From a virus: a stretch of DNA of 46,935 nucleotides. The notes under the pieces were generated by a model, which ran no database searches, had not been told where the DNA came from, and saw only the letters and a program-made list of their open reading frames with translations. This document shows positions 2,914 to 23,440 of this stretch, one piece after another; positions within the stretch are counted from its first letter, which is position 1; each line of letters opens with the position of its first letter. A program made the translations under genes and the position numbers. Location: positions 1 to 46,935 of the IMG/VR virus record IMGVR_UViG_3300030616_000038, one strand, 5' to 3'.

Positions 2914-4800
2914 ATGGCTGAAGAGAGCGGAGCCAAAGGCTCTGAAGATCTGTTGCCGTCGGTCAAGGCTCGCCTGATCTCAGGCTCGGCTGAGATACTG
3001 AAGCAGGTCGCGTCGAATCAGGTCACCGAGGAAGACGCGCAAAGCCGGCGCTTCGTAGAGAAGGGGGCACTAGAGCCACCCTATGATCCTGAGTTGCTTT
3101 GCGTGCTCTTCGAGCACAGCTCAGCGCTTCGGCCACCCGTGGACAGCTACTCCACAAACATCGACGGGTTTGGCTACAGGCTAGAACCGATCTTCGACAT
3201 CGAAAGCGAGGAAGACCGCAAGCGGATCACGGCTGCTTTGCGAGCGCGAACGCGGAAGGCGGATGACAATGCAGCGGAAGGGACTCCGGTTCCGGAAGAT
3301 GATGAAATCCGAGCGAAGCTCCAAGAGCTTGCGGACGCAATGCTCGCCGAGAAGGCGAAGCTAGAGACCTTCTTTCGGAATTGTTGCACCGATCATTCGT
3401 TCGTAAAGCTTCGCCGCAAGACCCGTCAAGATCTCGAAGTAATGGGGTTTGGATATTGGGAGATCGTGCGCAACCGCGGGGGTGAAGTTTCCGAGTTGGT
3501 CTATGTGCCGGGCTACACCGTGCGGCTGCTTCCTCGCGACCGAAAGCCGGTCACGATCGAAATGAAGGTCCGGCAGGATGATCTCACTTTCACCACGATC
3601 AAGCGTAGGAAGCGCTTCCGCACTTTCGTCCAGATCGTGGAAGGCGAGACCGTGTTTTTCAAGGAGTTTGGCGACAAGCGGATCGTGAGCTCAGAAACCG
3701 GGCGGCGGTATCCCACGGTCGAAGCGCTGATCACGGAAGAGCCGGAAGCGGTCGAGGCGACTGAGCTGAAACACTTTGCGATCGATAGCCCACGATCACC
3801 GTATGGCGTACCACGCTGGATCGGAACGCTGCTGAGCGTGGTCGGATCGCGAAGCAGTGAAGAGGTCAACTATTCCTACTTCGACAATAAGAGCGTTCCT
3901 CCGCTCGCGATCTTGGTGAGTGGCGGTCGAGTTGCTGAGAGCTCGGTCCAGCGCATCCGAGACTTCGTTCAGAATGAGATCAAGGGAAAGAGCAACTTTC
4001 ATAAGATCTTGATCATCGAAGCGGAGCCGGTAGCCGGCGCAGCAGTGACCGAAAGCTCTTCGCGTATGAAGATCGAGTTGCGACCGCTGACCGGTGCTCA
4101 GCATTCGGACGCGCTTTTCCAAAAGTACGACGAGAGAAACATCGACAAGGTTGGCGGAGCGTTCCGCTTGCCGCGCTTGCTGCGTGGCGATATTCGAGAC
4201 TTCAATCGCTCGACCGCGATGGCGGCGCTCAACTTCGCAGAAATGCAGGTTTTCAATCCTGAGCGCGAAGACTTCGATTGGTTCGTCAATCAAGAGCTCT
4301 TCCGTGATATCGGAGTCCGCTACTGGCGCTTCGTATCGAAGGCACCGGTCACGCGCGATCCGGTTGCGCTCTCCGAAATGATCCGCAACCTGGCAAATGC
4401 CAACGTGCTGATCCCGCGCGAGGGACGCGAGCTTGCTGAAGACGTATTCAATCGCGAGTTCAAGAAGCTCGCGGATGATTGGACCAAGCAACCTATGCCA
4501 ATGACCTTGGCTGGGATCACAGGCGGAGTCGAAGGCTACGCCAACGGCACGAGTCAAGGGGAAGGCAAAGAAGAGAACGCGGAAGAGAATCCAGCCGTCA
4601 AGCTCGCGCTTCAGGCGTTGCGGATCCGTGGAGCTCTGGAAAAATTGGAGGAAGACGCGTTCGTCGCTCAGCTGGGCAAAGCGCTAGGGTGGGAATCAAT
4701 GCCGCGCGAGACGATCGTGGTGAGCCAAGAGAAAATGCGCGAGCTCACCGGAGCCACCGAAGATGCAGGCAGAGAAGATCAGGCTACGCAAGAAGCATAG
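2914..4800 (+). CDS. Portal protein
   Basis: 628 residues, preceded by a good ribosome-binding site (GGGAGACGAACGCT). The protein resembles the PBSX/SPP1-HK97 type of phage portal: the ring of twelve subunits at the capsid vertex through which DNA enters and leaves and to which the terminase and connectors dock. Supporting segments include the LFEHSSALRPPVDSYSTNIDGFGY region near residue 65, GFGYWEIVRNRGGEVSELVY (about 175-194), and a central helix-rich stretch around GTLLSVVGSRSSEEVNYSYF with FDNKSVPPLAILV after it. The long C-terminal tail is acidic. The downstream zinc-ribbon gene starts inside its 3' end. Family assignment is by recall of portal layout and is strong given the gene order. 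Confidence 0.88.
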   Translation: MAEESGAKGSEDLLPSVKARLISGSAEILKQVASNQVTEEDAQSRRFVEKGALEPPYDPELLCVLFEHSSALRPPVDSYSTNIDGFGYRLEPIFDIESEEDRKRITAALRARTRKADDNAAEGTPVPEDDEIRAKLQELADAMLAEKAKLETFFRNCCTDHSFVKLRRKTRQDLEVMGFGYWEIVRNRGGEVSELVYVPGYTVRLLPRDRKPVTIEMKVRQDDLTFTTIKRRKRFRTFVQIVEGETVFFKEFGDKRIVSSETGRRYPTVEALITEEPEAVEATELKHFAIDSPRSPYGVPRWIGTLLSVVGSRSSEEVNYSYFDNKSVPPLAILVSGGRVAESSVQRIRDFVQNEIKGKSNFHKILIIEAEPVAGAAVTESSSRMKIELRPLTGAQHSDALFQKYDERNIDKVGGAFRLPRLLRGDIRDFNRSTAMAALNFAEMQVFNPEREDFDWFVNQELFRDIGVRYWRFVSKAPVTRDPVALSEMIRNLANANVLIPREGRELAEDVFNREFKKLADDWTKQPMPMTLAGITGGVEGYANGTSQGEGKEENAEENPAVKLALQALRIRGALEKLEEDAFVAQLGKALGWESMPRETIVVSQEKMRELTGATEDAGREDQATQEA

Positions 4801-5032
4801 CGGATGCGTTTTGCGCTTGGCTTCCAATGAGTACAAGCGCGTTCCAACCGATAGCTCCTATCCGGCTGTCGGCTACTACATCCGTTGCCACCATTGCGGG
4901 GTTATCACGGTCATACTTGCCAGCGAGAACGGAGCAAGCGATCCGAGCGATGTGCTTTCGGTGGACGCCTTCGAGTGTACCACTTGCCGACGTAAGCAAG
5001 TGATCCGTGACGGGGTGATCTTCGATGCATAA
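4763..5032 (+). CDS. Small zinc-ribbon protein
   Basis: 89 residues with two CxxC pairs, CHHC (C42, C45) and CTTC (C72, C75), the usual four ligands of a zinc ribbon. It overlaps the portal gene by 38 bases in another frame, and its last codons overlap the next start by eight bases. The spacing of 26 residues between pairs and the Tyr/Arg-rich lead (GYYIRCHHCG) are typical of small phage zinc ribbons lying between portal and head morphogenesis genes. Its role is unknown; structural zinc binding is the only thing the sequence supports. The exact start is uncertain because there is no clear ribosome-binding site. Confidence 0.65.
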   Translation: MQAEKIRLRKKHSGCVLRLASNEYKRVPTDSSYPAVGYYIRCHHCGVITVILASENGASDPSDVLSVDAFECTTCRRKQVIRDGVIFDA

Positions 5033-7007
5033 TCGGTGCTTCGACACCAACCACGAGTGCGTTTTGCATTGGGAGCGCTACGCGGACGCAGTGGAAGCGC
5101 TCGACCATCTTCTAGCGAAACACCGGATCGAGATCGCCAAAGCGCTCGACCCGCTCAATCGTGGTGACCTGCTTAAGATCTCACGGCACACGGCGCGAGC
5201 GCTGAAGCGGGCAACCGCCGGCTTCGAAGCAATCGCGGTCCGCGATGCATTGCAAGAGCTCGACGTCGATTGGCCTAAGCTTTCATCGAAGGCCAGGCTA
5301 CGCGCTACGCAAGCGGCAAACCGTCAGATCCGCAAAGTGCTTCCCATGCAAGCGATCCCGGGAGTAAAGCGCGTCCTTACGTTTGCGGTCCCACCGCTGC
5401 TCAAAGATACGAAGCAAAGCGCGATCAAACGTCACCGGCTCGAAATACCTTTTCGCTTCACGGATCAAGATGCGCGGATCGCGGAGTACGCGGTCAATAG
5501 CCAAACCAACTTCGTGACCAATGAGTACGGCAAACGGATCGATACCTTCAGCAAGCGCGTTCGTAGAGTGGTCGGAAAAGGGATCGAGCGTGGAGCCGGC
5601 GGTCATGAGATCGTTCGCGATCTTCGTGAGCAGGTTGGCAACCTTGGCAAGCTTGGGCGCGGGGACTTTTATTGGGAAGTGGTCGCGCTCGCTTTCACCA
5701 ACCGAACGCGTAACGCTGCCCAGCTTGGAGCTTTCTCAGAAGCGGCTTTCGAGCTCTTCCGGTGGGAAAGCATCATGGACGAAGTTACGACCGAACAATG
5801 CCGCTTCATGGACGGAAAAGTGTTTCCGATCGGTGACACGGTTGCAAAGTACGAGCAGGCGGAGCAAGCCAATAACCCGGAGGAAGTGAAGCAGATCCAA
5901 CCGTGGGTCAGCGTAGGTCGCGATCAAGAAGGCAACCGAGTCATGTTTTACCGTGGCGCGGAAGGCCAGAAGAACGTGGTCGCTCAGATTGATCGTCCCG
6001 GCTTCGGTCAGAATGATCGCGTTGGATCCTATTCGCGCGGGCTCAGTAACGATCAGCTCTTGAACGCTGGGATCTCAATGCCACCGCTTCACGGGCTTTG
6101 CAGAAGCACCGTAGTCCCGGAAGTAGGATCGCAGGGTGGAAACCAAAAACCGTTCCCACCGCCACCGCCACCGCCACCGCCACCGAAGCCGAAGCCGAAG
6201 CCGAAGCCGAAGCCGAAGCCGAAACCGAAGCCGCGAGCTCCGGCGCCAGCACCAAAGCCAGAGCCAAAGCCAGAGCCACGACCAGCGGCAGGCTACCCAA
6301 CCAAGGGTGAGCACTTCGAGGATTTCTTTTCTGCCTTCGATAAAGCAACCGAGCAAGACGTTTTGCAGGCGGTCGCTGACGTTGGTTTGCTTCCGTACCT
6401 GAAGAGAAGACCATTAGCGAAGCTCGCGTTGGTCGATAAGGTGATCAGCAAGCACGACAAATTTGCCAACTCGATCAAGCACACCGCTTACGGCGTGTAC
6501 CATAGCGAGTTCAGCTATATAGGCTTCAAACGAGTCGAGGAAGCCGCGGCGCTGAAGGTCAGATCGGATCACGGTTACGGCTATTGCTTCGGCAGGATGA
6601 CGGCGACCAATCCGGCACAGTGGAGCACTTCTCAGATCGCAACCAAGGTACATGGTCAGCGTGCCGGGATACGGACCACCATGATCCACGAGATGGGGCA
6701 TCACGTGCACATGTCTGGTCAAGCGGCAATAGCCGGATCAGAATTGCGCGCGGAGCACGATAAGGTCGACAAGATTGTCCGCAAGGCTTGGCGCAACAGA
6801 AGAAAGGCAGTCAAGGCCGGGGCAATGAAGCTTCTAACCAGATACTCAGACCATGACCGGGAAGAATATTTCGCGGAAGCGTTCGCGGCGCATGCTATGG
6901 ACCCTGAAGTGCTGAAGGCTCGCGACCCATACGCTTTCGAAATGGTAGAGCAAGTTCGAAAGATTCGAGGGCTTGGTCCAGTAACACGGAGCATAGATCG
7001 ACCATGA
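5025..7007 (+). CDS. Minor head protein (Mu gpF/SPP1 gp7-like) fused to zinc metalloprotease-like domain
   Basis: 660 residues in three parts. Residues 1 to about 370 look like a phage head morphogenesis protein: FTNRTRNAAQLGAFSEAA and the end MPPLHGLCRSTVVPE, which matches the usual HPNCRCT-like close of that domain. Residues 378-403 are a linker of ten prolines followed by eight Lys-Pro pairs, then more Pro-rich sequence. From about 425 there is a second domain with HEMGH (H555-H559) inside MIHEMGHHVHM and a downstream EEYFAEAFAAH (E613-E618), the HExxH plus glutamate arrangement of gluzincin/lethal-factor-like metalloproteases. The head part probably sits with the portal inside the capsid; the protease could be packaged or could process virion or host proteins. 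Substrate unknown. Confidence 0.85.
   Translation: MHNRCFDTNHECVLHWERYADAVEALDHLLAKHRIEIAKALDPLNRGDLLKISRHTARALKRATAGFEAIAVRDALQELDVDWPKLSSKARLRATQAANRQIRKVLPMQAIPGVKRVLTFAVPPLLKDTKQSAIKRHRLEIPFRFTDQDARIAEYAVNSQTNFVTNEYGKRIDTFSKRVRRVVGKGIERGAGGHEIVRDLREQVGNLGKLGRGDFYWEVVALAFTNRTRNAAQLGAFSEAAFELFRWESIMDEVTTEQCRFMDGKVFPIGDTVAKYEQAEQANNPEEVKQIQPWVSVGRDQEGNRVMFYRGAEGQKNVVAQIDRPGFGQNDRVGSYSRGLSNDQLLNAGISMPPLHGLCRSTVVPEVGSQGGNQKPFPPPPPPPPPPKPKPKPKPKPKPKPKPRAPAPAPKPEPKPEPRPAAGYPTKGEHFEDFFSAFDKATEQDVLQAVADVGLLPYLKRRPLAKLALVDKVISKHDKFANSIKHTAYGVYHSEFSYIGFKRVEEAAALKVRSDHGYGYCFGRMTATNPAQWSTSQIATKVHGQRAGIRTTMIHEMGHHVHMSGQAAIAGSELRAEHDKVDKIVRKAWRNRRKAVKAGAMKLLTRYSDHDREEYFAEAFAAHAMDPEVLKARDPYAFEMVEQVRKIRGLGPVTRSIDRP
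6156..6233 (+). repeat. Simple repeat coding for Pro10-(Lys-Pro)8 linker
   Basis: Five copies of CCACCG (6156-6185) are followed by eight copies of AAGCCG (6186-6233, one with AAACCG). They encode a rigid, extended, positively charged linker between two domains of the head protein. Near-identical codons suggest recent expansion by slippage. Confidence 0.95.
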
Positions 7008-7267
7008 GCGACGAACCTACAGCGGCGGAGTTAGCCAAACTCGAAAAGCTTTACGCTGCTTCTGACAAGCTGACCAAGCTTACGCAAGAAGCATCCGATC
7101 TCTACGACGCCGGGAAGCTAACGGCCGAGAAGATCGAAGAGCTGCAGAGCAAAGGGGACGCGATTGCGGAGAAGATCGGTCCAGAAAATGTGCCCGATTG
7201 GGACGAGTCTTTGGCGCGGTATCGCGACGAAATTGCGCTAGCACCGAAGCGTCTGGCACTCTACTAA
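7004..7267 (+). CDS. Small coiled-coil-like hypothetical protein
   Basis: 87 residues, starting in an ATGA overlap with the minor head protein gene, so probably translated by coupling. The sequence is mostly helical and strongly charged (KLEKLYAASDKLTKLTQEA), with heptad-like Leu/Ile spacing over residues 9-55 and a Trp near the end (NVPDWDESL). No known motif. Its place directly after the head protein suggests a head assembly accessory, but that is only context. Confidence 0.6.
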   Translation: MSDEPTAAELAKLEKLYAASDKLTKLTQEASDLYDAGKLTAEKIEELQSKGDAIAEKIGPENVPDWDESLARYRDEIALAPKRLALY

Positions 7268-7278
7268 TTCCAAGCCAC

Positions 7279-7307
7279 TCGACGGGGACGGTCCGGCGCG
7301 ATACGCT
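7279..7307 (+). promoter_or_regulatory. Candidate leaderless promoter before 7314
   Basis: TCGACG (7279-7284), 17 nt spacer, TACGCT (7302-7307), ending 6 nt before the GTG start. The -35 matches TTGACA at four of six positions and the -10 fits TAnnnT. There is no Shine-Dalgarno site between it and the start codon. Confidence 0.4.
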
Positions 7308-7313
7308 CCAAGC

Positions 7314-7628
7314 GTGCAGACCTTCGTGCGATCAGGCGGCGGCGCTTACCTGAAGCTGGTTGAGGAAAAACTCCACGGTCGCGTGGTTATGATCTTCGAA
7401 GATGCGATAGCCAAGAGCTTCGAAGATGATCGGTCACGTATGACCAGCAGAGAGGTCAAGCGACGCTTTGAGATCTGCTGTAAGATCTTCGAAGCGCTCC
7501 GCGCCGATTTGCAATGGGGGATCGACCGTATCGCTGATCACCTTGCGGCGTATCTTCGGTGCGAGCTGGACGGTATTGACTGGAAGCCAGATGATCGCAC
7601 GCTCTGGGTTCCACAAGACGGCGGGTGA
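7314..7628 (+). CDS. Hypothetical protein
   Basis: 104 residues from a GTG start. Largely helical, with a central basic/acidic segment (DDRSRMTSREVKRRFEICCKIFEAL) and a Trp-containing end (DGIDWKPDDRTLWVPQDGG). I do not recognise a family. It lies in the head module between two other small genes, and ends four bases before the next ATG. An internal ATG at 7389 is an alternative start. The upstream TACGCT box at a spacing of six bases and the absence of a ribosome-binding site point to a leaderless start at the GTG. Confidence 0.6.
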   Translation: MQTFVRSGGGAYLKLVEEKLHGRVVMIFEDAIAKSFEDDRSRMTSREVKRRFEICCKIFEALRADLQWGIDRIADHLAAYLRCELDGIDWKPDDRTLWVPQDGG

Positions 7629-7631
7629 ATC

Positions 7632-8177
7632 ATGGCGACTCCAAGCTTCGATCCAAATCTTCCGGTCAAGAACATCCCATGGGGCAGCAAGACCGAGATC
7701 GAGAACGCGGTCCTTGGTGATCCTCCCAATTGGGATCGCTATCAGAAGGCGCACCTTTGGTACGATCCTGAAAAGGAAGAGACCAAAGCCGGATACAAAC
7801 TTCCGGTTGCGCGCATGGACGGCGGAACGCTGACCGTGGTGCGCTCACAGTTGAGCGCGGCAATCGCAGCGATCAACGGAGCGCGAGGGGGGACAGATAT
7901 TCCAGCAAGCGATCGGACCGCTGCGTACAAACTCGCGGTTCGATACCTCAAGAAGTACGATCCAAAGATCCAAGCCCCGGAGCTGAAGGCAATGACGAAA
8001 AGCACGGAAGCAGAACGCACGGAAGAGCTCTACAAGCGGTTGGCCGAGCAGCGTGGAGAGCGAGTCGAGAAGAGCAACGCCGAAAGGAATTTGGACGCGG
8101 ACGGTTTCCCTGCCGATCTGAATGATCCGAGCTTCTTGGAGACCGGCGAAGCTACGCCACCGATCTGGAAGGACTAG
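7632..8177 (+). CDS. Head-module protein with protease-associated-like domain
   Basis: 181 residues. The middle section (about 38-108: HLWYDPEKEETKAGYKLPVA, then AAIAAINGARGGTDIPASDR and AVRYLKKYD) resembles a small domain that I recall flanking phage prohead proteases and related head proteins, with the GARGG..IPA pattern. The C-terminal third is charged and ends in an acidic, probably flexible tail. It directly precedes the large methylase-protease fusion gene, supporting a role near capsid maturation. No catalytic residues are evident and the family name is uncertain. The ribosome-binding site is weak. Confidence 0.65.
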   Translation: MATPSFDPNLPVKNIPWGSKTEIENAVLGDPPNWDRYQKAHLWYDPEKEETKAGYKLPVARMDGGTLTVVRSQLSAAIAAINGARGGTDIPASDRTAAYKLAVRYLKKYDPKIQAPELKAMTKSTEAERTEELYKRLAEQRGERVEKSNAERNLDADGFPADLNDPSFLETGEATPPIWKD

Positions 8178-8209
8178 CGGTCGAGCCAAGCACGTCAGGA
8201 GCGCGCCCC

Positions 8210-11155
8210 ATGTTTGAGGAAGAGCTAGAGCTTTGGATCGAAAAGTACGTCTTCGGCTACCCTGCAGGAAAGACGCGCATGAAAAAGGGTCTTGTGCGAA
8301 TGATCCCGTCGCACAAGGTCTATTGTGAGCCGTTCTGCGGCGGCGCTTCGGTCTTCTTTGCAAAGGAGCCAAGCGAAACCGAAGTGCTCGCAGACGCGAA
8401 CGCTGAGATCGTGAAAGCGTTCAAGATGATCCAGTCGCTCACGAAGGCAGAGCTTGCCGAGCTTCGCTCGTGTGAGTGGATGGCACGCAAGAAGCTATTC
8501 GAGCGAATGAAGACCGCGAAGCCAGAAGGGAAGGTTGCGAAGCTGCATCGCTTCTTGTATCTGCGATCCTTTTCGTTCAGCCGGCTCGGCGGAGCTACCG
8601 AAAGCGGCCGAAGCCTGTCCGGTTACGATACAGCCAGCGAGGGACGTGCAACCAAGATCGTGGAGCGCGTAGCAAAGGCGATCCCGCGCCTGAAAGGAGT
8701 CAAGCTGGTCGCAGGCGATTACGAGTCGGTGGTCAAGGAATACGATGGCGCCGACACGGTCTTCTTTTTCGATCCTCCTTACGCCGGCTATAACGTGCAG
8801 AGCGGGATCGGAGAGAAAGGTTTCGACGAAGAGCGCTTCCGCAAAGTGCTGAAGTCGATCAAGGGGAAGTTTATTCTGACCTACGGAGTCAAAGGGAAGC
8901 TCGATCTCTCTGGTTTCAAGGTGCAGCGCGTCGCACAGTGGAGATCGGTCGCGCGCGGAGGCAAGGGAGTCAGCCGCGACCAAAATCTTGCCACGCTGGT
9001 CGTGACCAATTTCAAGGGAGCGGTCTACAAGGCTTTCGAAGAGACGGGGCTTGATCTCGAAGATCTCAGGCTACACGTTGACATGCAGCCGATCGCGAAG
9101 TTTTCGGACGGCGGAATGCATGTGCACACGCTCGATCGAAAACGCAAGGAAACCGATCTCGACGGCATTCACTCGCACGTCTTCATGGCTGAAAGTGACG
9201 GGGGTCGCGAACGCATCTTGCGTACCGTTCACGGTGGACCGCACGTGCACACGCTTGCGAAAGAAGACGCAGAGTCCACGCAAGCTGGAGCCAAGCACAA
9301 GCACAAGGTTTTGGTCTACTCGCTCGACCAATACTACACGCCGTCGGAAGTGCTGGAGACTTCAGAAGAGAGCGGGCACACGCACGAGCTAGGCACTTCG
9401 AACACTGCATTCGACGGCGGTCACGTGCACGATCTGGTCACTGAAACCGGAGCGAAGATCAAGTCGCTTACGCCCGGCAAGATTGCCACCATGCAGGTCA
9501 AGAAGAGCGAAGATCCCTACTTGGAGATCCCGACGCACGCTACGCCGCGACCTGCAGTGCTGAAGCTTTGCGCAAGCGACGGAGGTTTCACGGTCGACCT
9601 TTGGCTCGATAACGGCAACCGTGCGATCGGTTGGGGCTTTGAGATTGCACGCGTTCCGGTGGAAGTGGGAAAGCTGGCAGAGCTAGCGAAACGCTTCACC
9701 GTAGAAGGCGATCGCTACGTGGATTCGCTCACGAAGCTGGTCCCGGCGCGCGAGCTCGGCGCTTCAGATCTGGGAATGCTGAAGCTGGAAGGTGAGATCG
9801 AAGGCGGACGGGTCGAATACGTGGATGCGTGCGCATTCGAACACGGGTTGCATACTGAGGATTCGCACGAGTATTTCGTCAGCAAGGGAGCGGAGCTCTC
9901 CGGAGTGATCGACGTGCTTCGTGACGGCTTCGGAAACTGGCATGCCCGGATCCGCAAAAACGATCTGCTTCCGGCAGTGCTGAGTCCGCGAGCCTGTCTC
10001 GAAAAGTGGATCCCACCGCTTGGTCACTCCGGGTTGCCGCAAGCGCTCGAAGCAGTGATCCCGGAGAGCCTGCAGTTTTGGACCGAGAAGAGCGATCGCA
10101 AGCACGCGATCGAGATCCGTGATTTGCTCGTTGCTTCACGCCTGATCACGAAGGACCGGCTTGCGCTAGTGAATGGCGAGATCCGGTTGATAGAAAAGCA
10201 GATCTCTGGACTGTTCGATCCGGGCGAGCCGACCGATCTCGATCCGCAATGGGCGATCAAGGCGGTAGCCGAACGCTTCGGCGGAAACGTGGTCGAGAAA
10301 TTTGGAACAGAGGAAGCTCACATCGAAGGCGAAGCTTTGGCCTTCTACGATCTAACGGCTAGCGCCGACTCGATCGATAGCGTAGCGAAAGCTCTAGCCA
10401 CCGGTTCGACCGACTTTGCTTTGATGTGCATCGACTCAGAGCAAGCACGCGAAGCGCTGTCCAAGTATGGCCGACCGTTCCGAATCATTCCGAGCGATCC
10501 TCACCATGCGGCGGAGGTCTGCAAACGGATCTTTTTGACCAGCTTCCCGCTACTGAAGACCGCAGACGTGCAATGGCTCGAAAGCGAAGAGCTACGCAAG
10601 GCAAGCACGCCGATCGCAAAACCGTTTGCTGGCTTCGATACCTTCGACGATTGCGTGGCCTCAGTAATGGCTGAGCAAGATCTTAGCGAGGAAGACGCAC
10701 GCAAGGTTTGCGGCAAGCTGCAAACCGAAGCAGAGAAGAGCGAAGAGACAGAAACGGTCGACAAGCTCTTTGCGCCCTATACCGATCAGATCTCTTTGCT
10801 GAAGGCTGAAGACGAACGCTACGTGCTTGGTGTAGTTCTCGAGCCGGAGACCAAAGATTCACAGGGCGACGTCTACAGTGCCGAAGAGATCCGCAAAGCC
10901 GCGCACAACTTCATGGCTGAGTTTCAGAACGTGGGTCTCATGCACAGGCGGCTCGTCAATGGGAAGGTCCAGATCCTCGAATCCTTCCTAGCTCCGGTCG
11001 CTTTCAGTGTAGGAAAGGAAAAAGTCAAGAAGGGTACTTGGCTACTCGGTACGCGCGTTTTGGACGCTGATTTGTGGGCTGCAGTGAAGGATCGCAAGCT
11101 CACGGGATACTCAATCGGCGGGTCTGCAATTCGACGTCCTGAGCGCTCTTCTTGA
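8210..11155 (+). CDS. Fusion: Dam-type adenine methylase, His-rich repeats, XkdF-like capsid protease
   Basis: 981 residues, with a good ribosome-binding site (AGGAGCGCGCCCC). Residues about 10-280 form a class D12 N6-adenine methyltransferase: EPFCGGASVFF for AdoMet binding, VLADANAEIVKAF, and the catalytic DPPY in VFFFDPPYAGYN. The family typically methylates GATC. Residues 300-410 carry six HxH motifs (304, 321, 345, 363, 390, 405), most preceded by Gly-Gly or Gly, a likely metal-binding repeat. A middle region (to about 860) includes FDDCVASVMAEQDLSEEDAR, common in phage protease polyproteins. The C-terminus (about 865-981) looks like XkdF, the serine protease that matures the prohead, with H912 (LMHRR) and S968 (GYSIGG) as catalytic candidates. 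The stop codon lies in the -35 box of the next promoter. Confidence 0.87.
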   Translation: MFEEELELWIEKYVFGYPAGKTRMKKGLVRMIPSHKVYCEPFCGGASVFFAKEPSETEVLADANAEIVKAFKMIQSLTKAELAELRSCEWMARKKLFERMKTAKPEGKVAKLHRFLYLRSFSFSRLGGATESGRSLSGYDTASEGRATKIVERVAKAIPRLKGVKLVAGDYESVVKEYDGADTVFFFDPPYAGYNVQSGIGEKGFDEERFRKVLKSIKGKFILTYGVKGKLDLSGFKVQRVAQWRSVARGGKGVSRDQNLATLVVTNFKGAVYKAFEETGLDLEDLRLHVDMQPIAKFSDGGMHVHTLDRKRKETDLDGIHSHVFMAESDGGRERILRTVHGGPHVHTLAKEDAESTQAGAKHKHKVLVYSLDQYYTPSEVLETSEESGHTHELGTSNTAFDGGHVHDLVTETGAKIKSLTPGKIATMQVKKSEDPYLEIPTHATPRPAVLKLCASDGGFTVDLWLDNGNRAIGWGFEIARVPVEVGKLAELAKRFTVEGDRYVDSLTKLVPARELGASDLGMLKLEGEIEGGRVEYVDACAFEHGLHTEDSHEYFVSKGAELSGVIDVLRDGFGNWHARIRKNDLLPAVLSPRACLEKWIPPLGHSGLPQALEAVIPESLQFWTEKSDRKHAIEIRDLLVASRLITKDRLALVNGEIRLIEKQISGLFDPGEPTDLDPQWAIKAVAERFGGNVVEKFGTEEAHIEGEALAFYDLTASADSIDSVAKALATGSTDFALMCIDSEQAREALSKYGRPFRIIPSDPHHAAEVCKRIFLTSFPLLKTADVQWLESEELRKASTPIAKPFAGFDTFDDCVASVMAEQDLSEEDARKVCGKLQTEAEKSEETETVDKLFAPYTDQISLLKAEDERYVLGVVLEPETKDSQGDVYSAEEIRKAAHNFMAEFQNVGLMHRRLVNGKVQILESFLAPVAFSVGKEKVKKGTWLLGTRVLDADLWAAVKDRKLTGYSIGGSAIRRPERSS

Positions 11156-11187: not shown

Positions 11188-11940
11188 GTGGCTACTCCAA
11201 AGCCAAAAGATGAACCCGAAACCACGCGGCTGACCGATATGCGCGTTCACGAGGTTTCGTTCGTCGACCGTGCTGCTAACAAGCGGCGTTTCCTACTCAC
11301 GAAAAGGGACGATGACATGAGCAAGCTCGTAGCTGATGGGCGCGGTGGTTTCGTGCTGAAGGCGGACGGGAAGGAAGACGAGTCCGGCAAGAAGGAAGGC
11401 GAGGAGACCGCCGAGAAGGGGAAGGCCGATCCCAAGAAGGAAGAGAAAGAGGGAGACGGCAAGAAGGAAGGCGAAGAGACCGCCGAGAAGGGGAAGGCCG
11501 ATCCCAAGAAGGAAGGCGAGGAAGAGGAAGGCAAGGAAGAGAAAGCCAAGAAGAGCACGGTCGCAAAGCTCAATGCTACCGCCGAACGGATCCTCGACGT
11601 CGCCAAAGCTGTTTCGGAAGGCAAGGAGATCCCGGAAGGCTTCGCCGACGAGGTTGCGAAGATGGCCGCGGCTTGCTCCGGAGCAGAGGTCAAGAAGAGC
11701 GAGTCCAAGCAAGAGCCAACGGCTGAGCTGGTAGAGCTCACCAAGAAGGTCGGCGAGCTCGCGGAGACCGTGAGCAAGCAAGCGAAGACGATCGAATCGC
11801 AGAGCGAAGAGATCAAGAAGCTCAGTGCCGAGCCTGGCGATTCACGTGCACGCTCTCCCGAGGGAGTAGCGAAGGGCGCCGGCGATCACGTCGCGTGGCC
11901 GTCTGATCTCAACCGGTCGCAGCCGAAGGAAACTTTCTGA
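11188..11940 (+). CDS. Capsid scaffold-like protein
   Basis: 250 residues. The N-terminus has TRLTDMRVHEVSFVDRAANK, a segment typical of proteins made next to XkdF-like proteases, followed by a long Lys/Glu-rich low-complexity section and a C-terminal helical coiled coil (ELVELTKKVGELAETVSKQ). Charged, helical, and placed immediately before the major capsid gene, it fits an internal scaffold that guides prohead assembly and is then removed by the protease. The GTG at 11188 has no ribosome-binding site but sits at the predicted transcription start. A second start at ATG 11317, preceded by AAAGGGACGATGAC, could give a shorter 207-residue form. A 58-bp segment is duplicated (see repeat). Confidence 0.75.
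   Translation: MATPKPKDEPETTRLTDMRVHEVSFVDRAANKRRFLLTKRDDDMSKLVADGRGGFVLKADGKEDESGKKEGEETAEKGKADPKKEEKEGDGKKEGEETAEKGKADPKKEGEEEEGKEEKAKKSTVAKLNATAERILDVAKAVSEGKEIPEGFADEVAKMAAACSGAEVKKSESKQEPTAELVELTKKVGELAETVSKQAKTIESQSEEIKKLSAEPGDSRARSPEGVAKGAGDHVAWPSDLNRSQPKETF
11386..11515 (+). repeat. 72-bp-period duplication in scaffold gene
   Basis: Two 58-bp copies (11386-11443 and 11458-11515) differ at a single base (GAGGAG versus GAAGAG) and encode GKKEGEETAEKGKADPKKE twice. The in-frame, nearly identical copies indicate a recent tandem duplication lengthening the charged section. Confidence 0.95.
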
Positions 11941-12025: not shown

Positions 12026-12958
12026 ATGATGGACAATCGTAGCCTTCTGGAGAAGGCCGATCTGCAGCTGAGCGATCTGCTGACCGACGGCGGGCTTCTC
12101 ACCGAAGCACAGGCAATGAAGTTCCTTCGGGTCATGATCGACCAAGCGGTGGTGACGAAGATCGCGACCGTGAAACCGATGAAGTCCCACAAGGAAGAGA
12201 TCGACAAGATCCAGTTCGCGTCGCGCATCTTGCGCGCCGGCTCCGAGGGTATTGCGCTTGCCGAGAGTGACCGCGCGAAGCCGACCACCGACAAGGTCGA
12301 GCTCGACGCTCAGCTCTTCAAGGCTGAAGTGCGGCTCACCAACGAAGTTCTGGAAGACAATATCGAGCGCGGCACGCTTCGCCAAACCGTGATGACCCTC
12401 ATGGCCGAGCGCATCGCTACGGACATGGACGAAGTCGTGGTCAATGGCGATACCACGAGCACCGATCCCTTCCTCGCACAATTCGACGGGATTCTGAAGC
12501 AGAGCACGAGCAACACGGTCGATGCAGCCGGCGCCCGGCTCACCAAGACGGTCCTGAAGGATACGTTCCGCGCAATGCCGAATCCCTTTCGCAAGGGAAA
12601 GCGGTTGCTCCGCTTCCTCACGTCGAGCAATGCAGAGATCGACTACCGTGATTCGCTGAGCGATCGTGCGACCGAGGTCGGCGATCGTGCGCTGATCAAT
12701 GATCAGCCGATCGGCTACTCCGGGATCCCGGTTCTGGACGTGGACGTGATGCCGGAAGATCAGGGCACGGGCGACAAGACTTCCGTGATCCTCACCAACC
12801 CCAAAAACATCAACGTCGGGATCTGGCGGCAGATTCGGATCGAAACGGACAAGCTGATCCGTGAAGGCGTCATGTTGATCGTGGCTTCGCTGCGATTCGA
12901 CTGCAAGTACGCGCACGAACCGGCGACCGTGAAGACCTACAACGTGCTCGCTGCCTAG
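12026..12958 (+). CDS. Major capsid protein (HK97 fold)
   Basis: 310 residues, with the ribosome-binding site AAAGGA 12 nt upstream. The protein shows the features of a compact HK97-fold capsid protein: an N-terminal helix (SLLEKADLQLSDLLTDGG), an extended E-loop-like segment around KIQFASRILRAGSEG, the long spine-helix region LTNEVLEDNIERGTLRQTVM to ERIATDMDEVVVNGD, and a beta-rich A-domain with GYSGIPVLDVDVMP and TNPKNINVGIWRQIRIE. It forms the icosahedral shell. Neighbouring protease, scaffold and decoration-like genes confirm the assignment. The opposite strand also has a long open frame, which I treat as a shadow. Confidence 0.9.
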   Translation: MMDNRSLLEKADLQLSDLLTDGGLLTEAQAMKFLRVMIDQAVVTKIATVKPMKSHKEEIDKIQFASRILRAGSEGIALAESDRAKPTTDKVELDAQLFKAEVRLTNEVLEDNIERGTLRQTVMTLMAERIATDMDEVVVNGDTTSTDPFLAQFDGILKQSTSNTVDAAGARLTKTVLKDTFRAMPNPFRKGKRLLRFLTSSNAEIDYRDSLSDRATEVGDRALINDQPIGYSGIPVLDVDVMPEDQGTGDKTSVILTNPKNINVGIWRQIRIETDKLIREGVMLIVASLRFDCKYAHEPATVKTYNVLAA

Positions 12959-17583: not shown

Positions 17584-17939
17584 TTTCCCCCCTTGGCTTG
17601 GAAGTAAGCCGCTTTGTCCAGGTCGGTGAGTGCGAGCGCCAGAGCATCGATTTGCTTTCCCAAACCTTGGAGCACTTGGTCTTGACCGTCAATCCTCTTG
17701 ACCAAGCCGTCGACCCATTGCTGCGTTTGCAGAGCCAAAGCGTTAGCTTCGACCGCTTGTTCCTTTAGCACTTTCGCAGCGCGGTCTTTGTCTGCCATGT
17801 GCTGATCCTTAGCTCGAAGCCAACCGCGCACTGAAAGGAAGAGCGCAACCGAAAGGATCACTACCATCGATCCGAGTGCGCCATATTCCAGCAGGTTGCG
17901 CCCGGCATCAATCCCGGCTCCGGCGATTTTCTCAGGCAC
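17580..17939 (-). CDS. Holin-like single-pass membrane protein
   Basis: 119 residues from a GTG start, overlapping the endolysin gene end by eight bases. A transmembrane helix lies at about 20-38 (GALGSMVVILSVALFLSVRG), followed by a charged, helical tail (AKDQHMADKDRAAKVLKEQA and a heptad-like IDALALALTDLDKA). A membrane anchor plus coiled tail next to an amidase endolysin is consistent with a holin or antiholin role, but one-pass proteins of this kind are hard to assign from sequence alone. Confidence 0.65.
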   Translation of the reverse strand: MPEKIAGAGIDAGRNLLEYGALGSMVVILSVALFLSVRGWLRAKDQHMADKDRAAKVLKEQAVEANALALQTQQWVDGLVKRIDGQDQVLQGLGKQIDALALALTDLDKAAYFQAKGGK

Positions 17940-19530
17940 GGTTGAGCCTATCGATCTCGACCTTCACCAAATCGAGGTAGTGATCGATCGGGAAGTGCTT
18001 TCCCGGATCGGTGTGCGTGCTCTTACGGAACGCCCAAGTGACTTCATTGTGCGTGGTGATCCCGCGCTCGTTTCGTTTCAGACCCTCACGATCCACGAAG
18101 ACCGGAGGGACATTGTAGGTCACGCACAAGCGAGCAGTGAGGCAAGCGGATAGCGCGAGCATACGCGAAGAGAAATCATCTAACCATTGCTCGCGCGTTT
18201 GCCGTGCGTATCCGGCATGCTCCAAGTGGATCCCGTTCTTGTTTGCGCCTGGCGCTGCCCAAGCGACGTCCTTGTCAAGCACACATTGAACGATCGAATC
18301 ATCGTCGATGCAGTAGTGAGCGCTTGCCTTTGGCGCACTCGAGCCCGCAAACCAAGATGCGACCGCTTCGGCGGTCGTGCTTGCTTCGCCGGCTTCCATC
18401 GAATGCAGAACGATCAATTCGATCGATCGTCCACTTGCGACCGTGTAGTGCTTGGCTTGCTTGTAATCGATCCGCGTGTCTGCGGGAGAGCTCGGTCGCT
18501 CAATCGGATCGGTCCCGATCATTGCTCGGGTCTGCGAATCGACTTCGCCATTCTTGGGAAGACCGCGTGCGGCCTTCCAACTCACGGTTTGATTGTGCGT
18601 GCACGTGCCGAAGTCTTGATCATCCTTCCACGGATCGAGCGAGTGACCGTCGCGCATCAATTGGCGTTGCCAAGCGCCGACGTCTTGCCCCTTCATTCCC
18701 TTTCGCAATACTTCGCGCCACTCACCAGGAGGAAGATCGATCTCTGCTACCGCTTCCGGCACGGATGCAGATCCGCCAGGGCGAGGATCCGGAACACTCC
18801 AAACCTGTAGTGGCTCGTAATGCATGAGCGCGAAGAGCTCAGCGTCGCGACCGATCTCTTCGATATCGATCAGCATACCGTCCAAGATCACGTCACGGCG
18901 CACGAGCCAGCAGATCTGAGAATAGTCCACATGGTGGACGTTGTGCTTGGTGCTCTCTGGTTGCCACGGATTGAAAGGAGCGGAATGCTTGCGCGCCCAA
19001 CCAAAGTTTGCCGCGGCCGGCGCACCTTCGATCGTGCGGTCCTTCGTGCGATTGGTCAGGACCCAATGCTTCCCCACGTTGCCGGCGACCAGCTCGTGGT
19101 GTGATCGCACTTTGGCGTCCACGTCGCGGCTATGCTGAAGCATGCGCGAAGTGAACGCCATTTTTGCATCCGGGGTTTGTAGTGAGGGAGAGATCCAAAA
19201 CCCTTGTTCCCAAGCGAGCTCGACCAGGCGCGAGGTAGGGAGCACGGCTCCGGAAATCTCGGCGATCCTCTGCTGACCGAAAGCGGTCAGATTGGGGCGG
19301 AAGCTATCACCTTCGATCCCAAGCTGAAGCGCGTCACGCAATACGAAGAAACGCGCCGAGTGATCAGCGTGTGCCGTATCTATTCGAGCGTATAGCTCTA
19401 GCCAGACCAGCGGTAGGTGGTGGCCTTCTGAGAAGGCGCGGACGATCAGATCTTCACGAGTCTTGATTTCGTCCGGTGTGCGGCCTTCAGGCAGAGAAGC
19501 CGCGAGATCGGTCCCGGAGATCGTGGTCAT
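17932..19530 (-). CDS. Endolysin: N-acetylmuramoyl-L-alanine amidase with PG-binding domain
   Basis: 532 residues, longer than most phage amidases. The C-terminal domain (about 355-530) is an Amidase_2-type zinc amidase that cuts the MurNAc to L-Ala bond: H376 (IVLHSME), H494 (GITTHNEV) and D508 (TDPGKHFP) are the probable zinc ligands. A peptidoglycan-binding domain (about 272-345) contains LRKGMKGQDVGAWQRQL. Residues 1-265 are a large unassigned region with Trp-rich stretches and HHELVAGNVGKHW; its function is unknown. It leads the reverse lysis unit. No Shine-Dalgarno site is seen; TATCCT ends seven bases before the ATG, implying a leaderless start. Confidence 0.88.
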   Translation of the reverse strand: MTTISGTDLAASLPEGRTPDEIKTREDLIVRAFSEGHHLPLVWLELYARIDTAHADHSARFFVLRDALQLGIEGDSFRPNLTAFGQQRIAEISGAVLPTSRLVELAWEQGFWISPSLQTPDAKMAFTSRMLQHSRDVDAKVRSHHELVAGNVGKHWVLTNRTKDRTIEGAPAAANFGWARKHSAPFNPWQPESTKHNVHHVDYSQICWLVRRDVILDGMLIDIEEIGRDAELFALMHYEPLQVWSVPDPRPGGSASVPEAVAEIDLPPGEWREVLRKGMKGQDVGAWQRQLMRDGHSLDPWKDDQDFGTCTHNQTVSWKAARGLPKNGEVDSQTRAMIGTDPIERPSSPADTRIDYKQAKHYTVASGRSIELIVLHSMEAGEASTTAEAVASWFAGSSAPKASAHYCIDDDSIVQCVLDKDVAWAAPGANKNGIHLEHAGYARQTREQWLDDFSSRMLALSACLTARLCVTYNVPPVFVDREGLKRNERGITTHNEVTWAFRKSTHTDPGKHFPIDHYLDLVKVEIDRLNRA

Positions 19531-21193: not shown

Positions 21194-23440
21194 ATGGGAA
21201 ACGAGCTACTGGCATCCAAGGTCGTAATCCAAGAGGAAGAGCCCAAGATCCGTCAGATCCGCGGGGCACCAACCGCGTTCCTCTACGTCGAAGGGACCGC
21301 CGAGAAGGGACCGATCGGCTCCTATCAGGTTTGCACGTCACCGGAGGATTACGACAAATACTTCGGCGGGGTCACGGCGAACGCTTACGATCTCCCGCTG
21401 GCGATCGCTGGCTTTTTCGAGAATGGCGGTCAGCGTGCCTACGTCAACCGCGTGGTCCATTTCTCGGACATCGCCAACGCAAACAGCAAGGTCAGCGCCC
21501 AAGCTTCGGCCACGCACCAGACCAGCGATCTGGTCGCGAGTGCTGGAAGCGTGCTCGGATCGGTTTCGGAAACCTTCGCTTTGGCTGACGGCGATACGCT
21601 CGATCTCTCGGTCGATGGTGGCGCCACGGATACGGCGACGTTCAATGCGGCCGCGGCTGCGCTCACGGCTGGCAATACCGAAACCTACGCGCTCTCAGAT
21701 GGTCAGACGCTCACGGTCAAGATCGATGGTGAAGCTACGGCCCAGACCGTGACCTTCAATACCTCCGAGTTCGTGGCAATCGGTGCAGCAACCGCGGCTG
21801 AGGTTGCGGCGGTCATGAACGCCGAGCTCACCGGGTGCGCGGTTGACGTCAATGCCGGAGCTCCGCGGATCACGAGTGATACACTCGGGACCGATTCCGA
21901 GATCGAAGTCACCGGCGGAACGGCAAACACGGCGCTCGGTTTCAGCACTACGCCAGTCAATGGGACCGGCGATGCAGCCGACGCGGATGTGGTCACGGTT
22001 GCAGAGCTGAAGACTCTGATCGAAGGTGACGTCACCGGAGTGACCGTGAGCAGCGACAGTGGTCGCACCCGGATCACTTCGAACACGACCGGAGCTTCGA
22101 GCTCGGTCCAGGTCGAAGCGAGCAGCACACTGGACACAAAGCTCGGGTTCGACAATGCCACGCACTCCGGCGCGGATGCCGGAGCAGTGAACACGCTTCG
22201 CGTGCGCGGCAAGTACGACGGAGCCTATGCCAACAATCTGGTCACGGAGATCGCGGCGGCTACCAGTGGCGTCACGGCTGAATTCAACTTGCGCGTTTTG
22301 GAAAACGGCGTGCTCGCTGAAGTCTTCCCGAACGTGACGATGGACGATACCGCTTCCAACTTCGTGGAGAATATCGTCAATGACACCACGACCGGAAGCG
22401 AGCTGATCGAAGTGGAAGATCTCGACTCCGGTCTCGCTTCGCCGGACGATCGACCGGTGAACGGGCAGCAATCGCTCACCGGTGGAGACGATGGACTGAC
22501 CGGTCTCGACGATACTGATTACGTGGGAAGCGCGGTCAGCAAGCTCGGTCTTCGCGCTTTCGATCTGGAAACGCTCGGTGCATTGCTCGCAGTGCCCGGT
22601 CGCGCAACCAGCGACGTTCACAATGCGATGCTCACCTATTGCTCGGTGATTCGAAACAAGCGCGTGTTCGCGGTGCTCGATCCGCCGGAAGGCTACACGG
22701 CGGAAGAGATCATCACCTACGTCAAGACCACGGCCGCGATTCAGAATACGGTCGATTCTGAAATGGCAGCGATCTACTGGCCACGGATCACGATCAGCAA
22801 TCCGAACGAGACCATCTTCGGCAAGGTCGACGATATCGTGGTGCCTCCGAGCGGTCACATTTGCGGAATGTACGCACGTGTCGACGGCATGAAGCCGGGC
22901 GGAGTGTACGAAGCGCCAGCCGGGATCGGCTACGGTGAGCTTCGCGGAACCACCGGCCTCGAAACGGAAGAGGTCAACGACGAAGGCAAGCGCGATCTGA
23001 TCTATCCGGAATTGATCAATCCGATCGATACCGCGGTCAGCGCGCGACCAATGTGCGACGGCAACCGCACGCTGAAGGAAGACGGCAACTTCCCAACCAT
23101 CGGCGAGCGGCGCGGTGTCACGTACATCGAAAACAGCGTCTACAATGGGATCCAGTGGGCGCGACACCGCAAGATCAAGGTCTCTCAGCGCAAGCGCTTG
23201 GAGCGCACGGTCAAGAGCTTCCTCTTGATCCAAACGCGCAACGATGCGTTTGCATCCGATGATCCGGCAAAGGCGTTTTTCGTCGACTTCGGCGACGCTC
23301 TCAACCCGGCAAGCGCTGCGTTCGGGCGTCAGATCATCGGAAGGCTCGGCGTCGCCACGGCGAAGCCTGCTGACTTCATCATCGTCCGAGTTTCGCAAGA
23401 CACGCGAGCACTCGATCTCGAGCTGGCCGAAGCGGCGTAA
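21194..23440 (+). CDS. Contractile tail sheath protein with repeat insertion
   Basis: 748 residues. The N-terminus (RGAPTAFLYVEGTAEKGPIG, then YVNRVVHFSD) and the C-terminal sheath core (GVTYIENSVYNGIQWARHRK, then RLERTVKSFLLIQTRNDAFA, FVDFGDALNP) are characteristic of the phage tail sheath family, whose contraction drives the tube into the host. Between about residues 100 and 335 is an insertion made of repeats: DGDTLDLSVDGG (from 126) against DGQTLTVKIDGE (from 163), then a duplicated module with RITSDTLGT..LGF and RITSNTTGA..LGF. These probably form exposed domains on the sheath surface. Ribosome-binding site AAGGA. The long reverse open frame here is a shadow. Confidence 0.93.
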   Translation: MGNELLASKVVIQEEEPKIRQIRGAPTAFLYVEGTAEKGPIGSYQVCTSPEDYDKYFGGVTANAYDLPLAIAGFFENGGQRAYVNRVVHFSDIANANSKVSAQASATHQTSDLVASAGSVLGSVSETFALADGDTLDLSVDGGATDTATFNAAAAALTAGNTETYALSDGQTLTVKIDGEATAQTVTFNTSEFVAIGAATAAEVAAVMNAELTGCAVDVNAGAPRITSDTLGTDSEIEVTGGTANTALGFSTTPVNGTGDAADADVVTVAELKTLIEGDVTGVTVSSDSGRTRITSNTTGASSSVQVEASSTLDTKLGFDNATHSGADAGAVNTLRVRGKYDGAYANNLVTEIAAATSGVTAEFNLRVLENGVLAEVFPNVTMDDTASNFVENIVNDTTTGSELIEVEDLDSGLASPDDRPVNGQQSLTGGDDGLTGLDDTDYVGSAVSKLGLRAFDLETLGALLAVPGRATSDVHNAMLTYCSVIRNKRVFAVLDPPEGYTAEEIITYVKTTAAIQNTVDSEMAAIYWPRITISNPNETIFGKVDDIVVPPSGHICGMYARVDGMKPGGVYEAPAGIGYGELRGTTGLETEEVNDEGKRDLIYPELINPIDTAVSARPMCDGNRTLKEDGNFPTIGERRGVTYIENSVYNGIQWARHRKIKVSQRKRLERTVKSFLLIQTRNDAFASDDPAKAFFVDFGDALNPASAAFGRQIIGRLGVATAKPADFIIVRVSQDTRALDLELAEAA

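Follow-up and report, generated by a model that had tools for sequence, protein, structure and literature searches.

Described Systems with Similar Components

A few model phages are known to carry proteins in their heads, such as Alt and the IPs of T4, the Dar proteins of P1, and the vRNAP of N4, and the choice of cargo is often unclear. P1 packages anti-restriction proteins (DarB), and its prohead protease cleaves DarA (PMC9024508, PMC12810830). Polyvalent proteins are multi-domain phage proteins that include methylases, InPase, 2H phosphoesterase, and a peptidase domain (Iyer et al. 2017, PMC5512222). Their processing peptidases are mainly MPTases.

Another related group is the XkdF (Peptidase_S78_2) proteases, represented by those of PBSX, Lactococcus 98201, PaP1, HSTV-1, and ICP1. 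They share with the protein described here the protease domain, the catalytic His and Ser, and the position before the major capsid protein (MCP) gene. In canonical XkdF proteins, a median of ~56 aa precedes the protease, and a scaffold-like region lies behind it. The archaeal virus ANMV-1 encodes an "ATP-dependent DNA ligase" (KP703175), in which a ligase is joined to a LigD 3'-phosphoesterase (LigD-PE)-like domain that is also seen here. The gene is located between portal-like and MuF-like genes. Unlike the present class, this chain has no XkdF protease. In the ANMV-1 genome (L002:3200–5800 and 5868–9365), the neighbors of the ligase-PE gene are a portal-like gene annotated as "MutT-like phage hydrolase" and a gene for a 1166-aa cysteine-rich protein that ends in a MuF-like motif.

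The closest described profile is PHROG 13242, annotated as "unknown function". Its 450 positions match the methylase (24–284) and the protease (308–430) of the protein described below. It corresponds to the short form of the fusion and has no counterpart of the HxH block, the PE domain, or the second-methylase part.

Organization of the Fusion Gene

The window (the whole 46,935-nt stretch of viral DNA analyzed) contains a gene of a single open frame at positions 8210–11155, encoding a protein of 981 aa. This gene and the features described below are on the plus strand unless stated otherwise. Pfam detects two domains above the curated cut-offs: MethyltransfD12 (PF02086) at residues 18–224 (1.5e-19) and Peptidase_S78_2/XkdF (PF14550) at residues 866–973 (9.4e-28). 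The initial annotation described three parts, a D12 methylase, six HxH motifs, and an XkdF-like protease. All three are present, but this layout is incomplete, because it omits residues ~430–800, where a LigD-PE-like domain is followed by the likely remains of a second methylase.

In the AlphaFold2 model, most of the methylase is predicted confidently (pLDDT mostly 80–96), the middle and the protease are fair, and residues 278–438, including the HxH region, give nothing. The overall pTM is low (0.38), and thus the arrangement of the domains is not predicted.

A full-length orthologue of 972 aa is encoded in another IMG/VR contig (L246). It has the identical order of parts and all six HxH motifs, with 41–69% identity per domain. 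Scans with protease and methylase profiles reveal a methylase and a protease in one frame in at least ~43 non-redundant IMG/VR proteins; these counts come from best-80 lists and one methylase-directed scan and are therefore lower bounds with ascertainment bias.

Methyltransferase Domain and GATC Sites

The D12-class DNA methyltransferase occupies residues 10–270 (positions 8237–9019), as indicated by Pfam, phrog_56, phrog_13242, Foldseek, and pLDDT. The PF02086 score is 71.2 bits, against a gathering threshold of 22. The SAM-binding motif I, EPFCGG, is at residues 40–45 (8327–8344), and the catalytic motif IV, DPPY, is at residues 188–191 (8771–8782), as read originally from the N-terminus. 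The protein thus has both motif I and the [DNS]PP[YF] form of motif IV that mark the D12 class. EPF[AVCS]G[SGA] is kept in the fused relatives, and DPPY in most of them. Motif IV is gone in some relatives: L036, which has APPY, and L206.

Foldseek matches are Mcbe1 (7m6b), E. coli Dam, DpnM, and T4Dam, with TMt of 0.60–0.80. The fold and the motif order are common to all of them, and the top match is 7m6b, not E. coli Dam. The score against the NCBIfam dam model (TIGR00571) is 73 bits, below the cut-off of 114.85. The original label "Dam-type" is therefore too strong.

GATC was considered as the methylase target. The window contains 831 GATC sites, against 174 expected by base composition (4.8x), although the excess is 1.25x over a second-order model. 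CGATCG is seen 105 times against 14 expected. Among fusion-bearing loci, however, GATC is depleted in L172, L174, and L175 (0.07x in L175), while loci without the fusion are often enriched. The GATC counts were rejected on these grounds as evidence of the target.

HxH Block and Middle Modules

Six HxH motifs are clustered at residues 304–407 (9119–9430), in a region with pLDDT below 50. They start at residues 304, 321, 345, 363, 390, and 405, and no others are seen in the whole protein. They were described as regularly spaced; the number is correct, but the intervals vary from 15 to 27 residues, and the motifs are clustered rather than strictly regular. The block shows weak similarity to YmaF, below the cut-off (E = 0.021). 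It recurs in L246, L177, L258, and L260. Short fusions lack it, indicating that it is not a required hinge. It is plausible that the block is a metal-binding linker.

Residues 431–655 (9500–10174) correspond to a LigD-PE-like domain, based on Foldseek and on the alignment to relatives. Foldseek matches are the LigD 3'-phosphoesterases 3p43, 3p4h, 3n9b, and 5dmp (probability 1.00, TMt 0.52–0.77). The fold is common to 3p43, 3n9b, and 5dmp, but the catalytic histidines and arginine are lost: the window protein has C...TxDxW where relatives have H...HxDxR. Most relatives with a complete PE domain keep H...H-x-D-x-R, and it is lost in the window and in L246. The window copy is thus probably non-catalytic. 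An alignment of two PE sequences yielded nothing.

Residues ~660–795 (10187–10594) align with the C-terminal third of the second D12 copies of relatives (hhalign 97.9%, E = 3.4e-13; hmmsearch 8.7e-20) and contain neither motif I nor DPPY. They show no match to the first methylase of the same protein. Given this pattern of similarity, the segment is most likely what is left of another D12 methylase. It is followed by a helical element, PFAGFDTFDDCV...CGKLQ, at residues 804–842 (10619–10735), which is also found at the start of the stand-alone HSTV-1 protease.

All these enzyme-derived parts are maintained under purifying selection. In close pairs, dN/dS is 0.13–0.29 for the methylase domain and 0.05–0.22 for the protease. 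For the decayed PE and second-methylase parts it is 0.23, from one pair only.

Protease and Head Module

The XkdF/S78_2 prohead protease occupies residues 866–976 (10805–11137), as detected by Pfam (97.2 bits against a gathering threshold of 24) and by phrog_3017, a head maturation protease. Only 5 aa separate its end from the stop. The reported residues H912 (10943–10945) and S968 (11111–11113) are both present, and they are conserved in 100/100 and 99/100 aligned proteases, respectively, of the class with a C-terminal protease. Lys865 was considered as a marker of self-cleavage. It is conserved in one alignment (A6), but K is seen at this site in 33/100 of the wider class, and the candidate was rejected.

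The head module contains genes for a terminase (774), a portal protein (2914–4800; phrog_12), a MuF-type minor head protein (5025–7007; phrog_241/115), the fusion (8210), a probable scaffold (11188–11940), and a major capsid or virion structural protein (12026–12958; phrog_1623, 4.7e-94). It is followed by a contractile-tail module with a sheath at 21194, a tape measure, and a baseplate. An endolysin-like gene is located on the minus strand (17932–19530) within the plus-strand structural module. The fusion thus lies where a head maturation protease is expected, between the portal/MuF and MCP genes. The order portal-MuF-[fusion]-scaffold-MCP is unchanged in relatives, including those without a methylase.

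The putative scaffold gene has the N-terminus VSFVDRAANKRRFLLTK, corresponds there to phrog_3017 positions 4–33, and is at the same place in relatives. In canonical XkdF proteins, this stretch lies ahead of the protease; here it opens a separate scaffold-like gene. No scaffold is joined behind the protease, which forms the end of the chain and has a long enzyme cargo in front of it. The canonical XkdF gene looks split and rearranged in the window, judging from these similarities. In two other loci (L194 and L215), an XkdF protease domain is encoded twice within one head module, by separate ORFs.

Distribution of the Fusion and Exchange of Its N-Terminal Part

In the first 245 loci, no separate gene for a methylase similar to that of the window was found. 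Among the matches listed, the complete nearest relatives of the methylase are all fused, except L268, where two overlapping ORFs share the chain between them. Stand-alone proteins of the ordinary Dam-like kind are met only at greater distance among the methylase relatives listed. Scans of viral and genome contigs for close relatives of the whole protein gave no match, although family alignments did find relatives. In the GenBank phage and PLSDB sets, there is no record in which one place covers most of the short fusion. The joining of a methylase to a prohead protease had been called unusual. This holds for named phages, in none of which the fusion was found, but not for uncultured phages, in which it is widespread.

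Among the matches listed, proteins with a C-terminal XkdF protease have 37–2195 aa in front of it (median 378). This front part contains one or two D12 methylases, Methyltransf_11 (a SAM methyltransferase), ATP-dependent DNA ligase, LigD-PE, nucleotidyltransferase-like domains, UDG, GNAT, a metallo-beta-lactamase fold, 2H phosphoesterase (L243), or almost nothing. A recognized cargo is seen in 49/74 complete non-redundant proteins of this class among the matches listed, all collected by protease-directed scans only. In contrast, each cargo type is found in at most one of the 66 canonical XkdF proteins among the matches listed. The largest chain seen is a 2310-aa frame (L224:413–7342) composed of a metallo-beta-lactamase fold, PE, DNA ligase, and XkdF protease. 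At the other extreme are short members with 37–140 aa in front of the protease, and short fusions (L174 and L175) with ~25 aa from the methylase to the protease. Three IMG/VR contigs with the short fusion (2897483882_000002, 2833795578_000001, and 650716065_000003) bear names apparently of the kind given to isolate genomes.

At least 16 changes in the occurrence of the D12 methylase are counted on the protease tree, a soft number because the tree (116 columns) is short and poorly resolved. In two loci, the chain continues beyond the XkdF protease with InPase (Pfam PF18823; L195:4118–7795) or an InPase-like sequence (L250:3480–7436).

Comparison with Polyvalent Proteins and Database Labels

All parts of the window protein belong to known families, and virion-carried multi-enzyme proteins are already known. 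Like polyvalent proteins, the window protein has several enzymatic or conflict domains in one polypeptide. InPase and 2H phosphoesterase, which are seen in its relatives, are among the listed domain types of virion-carried polyvalent proteins (PMC5512222). A text search of that paper finds no XkdF or ligase fusion, and the general Pfam output for the window protein contains none of the hub domains MPTase, ArdC, MuF, DdrB-ParB, and SNF ATPase. The hub of this class is instead the prohead protease. Packaging was predicted or demonstrated for polyvalent proteins and P1 DarB/DarA. No description of the fusion was found among open-licence papers, and those searched do not appear to describe a prohead protease as the hub to which exchangeable DNA enzymes are fused.

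Stand-alone XkdF proteases of ~140–156 aa in Pseudomonas phages (L004, L006, and L008) are annotated as "DNA methyltransferase", and phrog_1530 has the same label. PaP1-like proteins with this label were considered as additional fusions and rejected, since the translated PaP1 protein is a 156-aa protease without a methylase. The label on short XkdF proteases is probably an annotation spill-over from fusions, and many such proteins in databases are probably mislabeled in this way.

Possible Function and Alternative Explanations

The head maturation protease probably takes exchangeable N-terminal DNA enzymes into the prohead, where they would act on packaged or ejected DNA. This reading is based on the position in the head module, the strictly conserved His and Ser, the recurrence of nucleic-acid enzymes as cargo, and the precedents of P1 and polyvalent proteins. 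It is also based on the conservation of the fusion, the fixed order of neighbors, the exchange of cargo with the protease kept, and the purifying selection on the methylase. The C-terminal protease would enter the prohead with the scaffold and bring the methylase inside, and proteolysis during maturation may trim or free the cargo. The methylase could modify phage DNA during packaging, or after ejection on entry, and the methylation could protect it from host restriction or a similar defense, like P1 DarB. The decayed phosphoesterase and second-methylase modules, being under selection in relatives, probably serve as DNA-binding or structural parts. The original suggestion of localization by the prohead gains support, as far as the methylase itself is concerned, from the position typical of a head maturation protease and from the other DNA enzymes in the same slot.

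Three observations weigh against this cargo reading. The existence of short members indicates that assembly does not need the cargo. The scaffold, part of the protease chain in canonical proteins, is a separate gene here, so the way in which the fusion would enter the prohead is presumed. GATC is depleted in L172, L174, and L175 and enriched in the window, leaving no simple target-site signature for protection.

The fusion might instead serve only the late co-expression of the methylase, which would act in the cytoplasm on replicating DNA before assembly. The protease would cut itself free, and the link to the head would be incidental. This is unlikely, though it has the most weight among the alternatives. 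Stand-alone D12 methylases, presumably active within the cell, are found in many phages (hundreds of D12-or-protease records), and one cut in the ~25-aa linker of L174 or L175 would release both enzymes. However, incidental co-expression does not predict that the slot, varied as it is, contains mostly nucleic-acid enzymes (ligase, PE, UDG, and methylases), and the nearest complete methylase relatives among the matches listed are fused. Rather less probable is a structural or DNA-binding role of the N-terminal modules within the prohead core, where they would provide scaffold-like mass or DNA anchoring near the portal, with their enzymatic use lost. Such a role would fit the loss of the PE active site in the window and the remnant state of the second methylase, both under purifying selection in relatives, as well as the loss of motif IV in L036 and L206. 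Yet nearly all first methylase copies retain EPFAGS and DPPY, and most relatives retain the PE motif H-x-D-x-R.

The P1 pac site is controlled by Dam methylation, and the fusion sits in the packaging/head module. The methylase could by analogy mark sites near the packaging start to time the terminase or protease. This is quite improbable, because the ligase, UDG, and GNAT in the same slot are left unexplained and relatives without the methylase have identical neighbors. The probability of an assembly artefact or a merged frame of two genes, which the initial annotation named as its refutation, is negligible. The split chain of L268 is in its favor, but the 972-aa orthologue, the at least ~43 independent non-redundant fusion contigs, and the absence of a separate methylase similar to that of the window in the first 245 loci indicate that the fusion is genuine.

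Implications

It can be speculated further, with more doubt than for the loading of DNA enzymes itself, that in a whole lineage of tailed phages the C-terminal prohead protease works as an adaptor for cargo in general. Exchangeable enzymes of DNA modification and repair would enter the prohead as protease fusions and be released by the protease itself. They would then either stay enclosed with the genome or leave the head together with it, and repair or mark it. If this is true, the conserved slot of the maturation protease would be a simple loading rule, by which the cargo of uncultured phages could be predicted from sequence. It would explain why DNA ligase, UDG, and methylases are encoded in head modules, and it would represent a natural protease-released loading tag.
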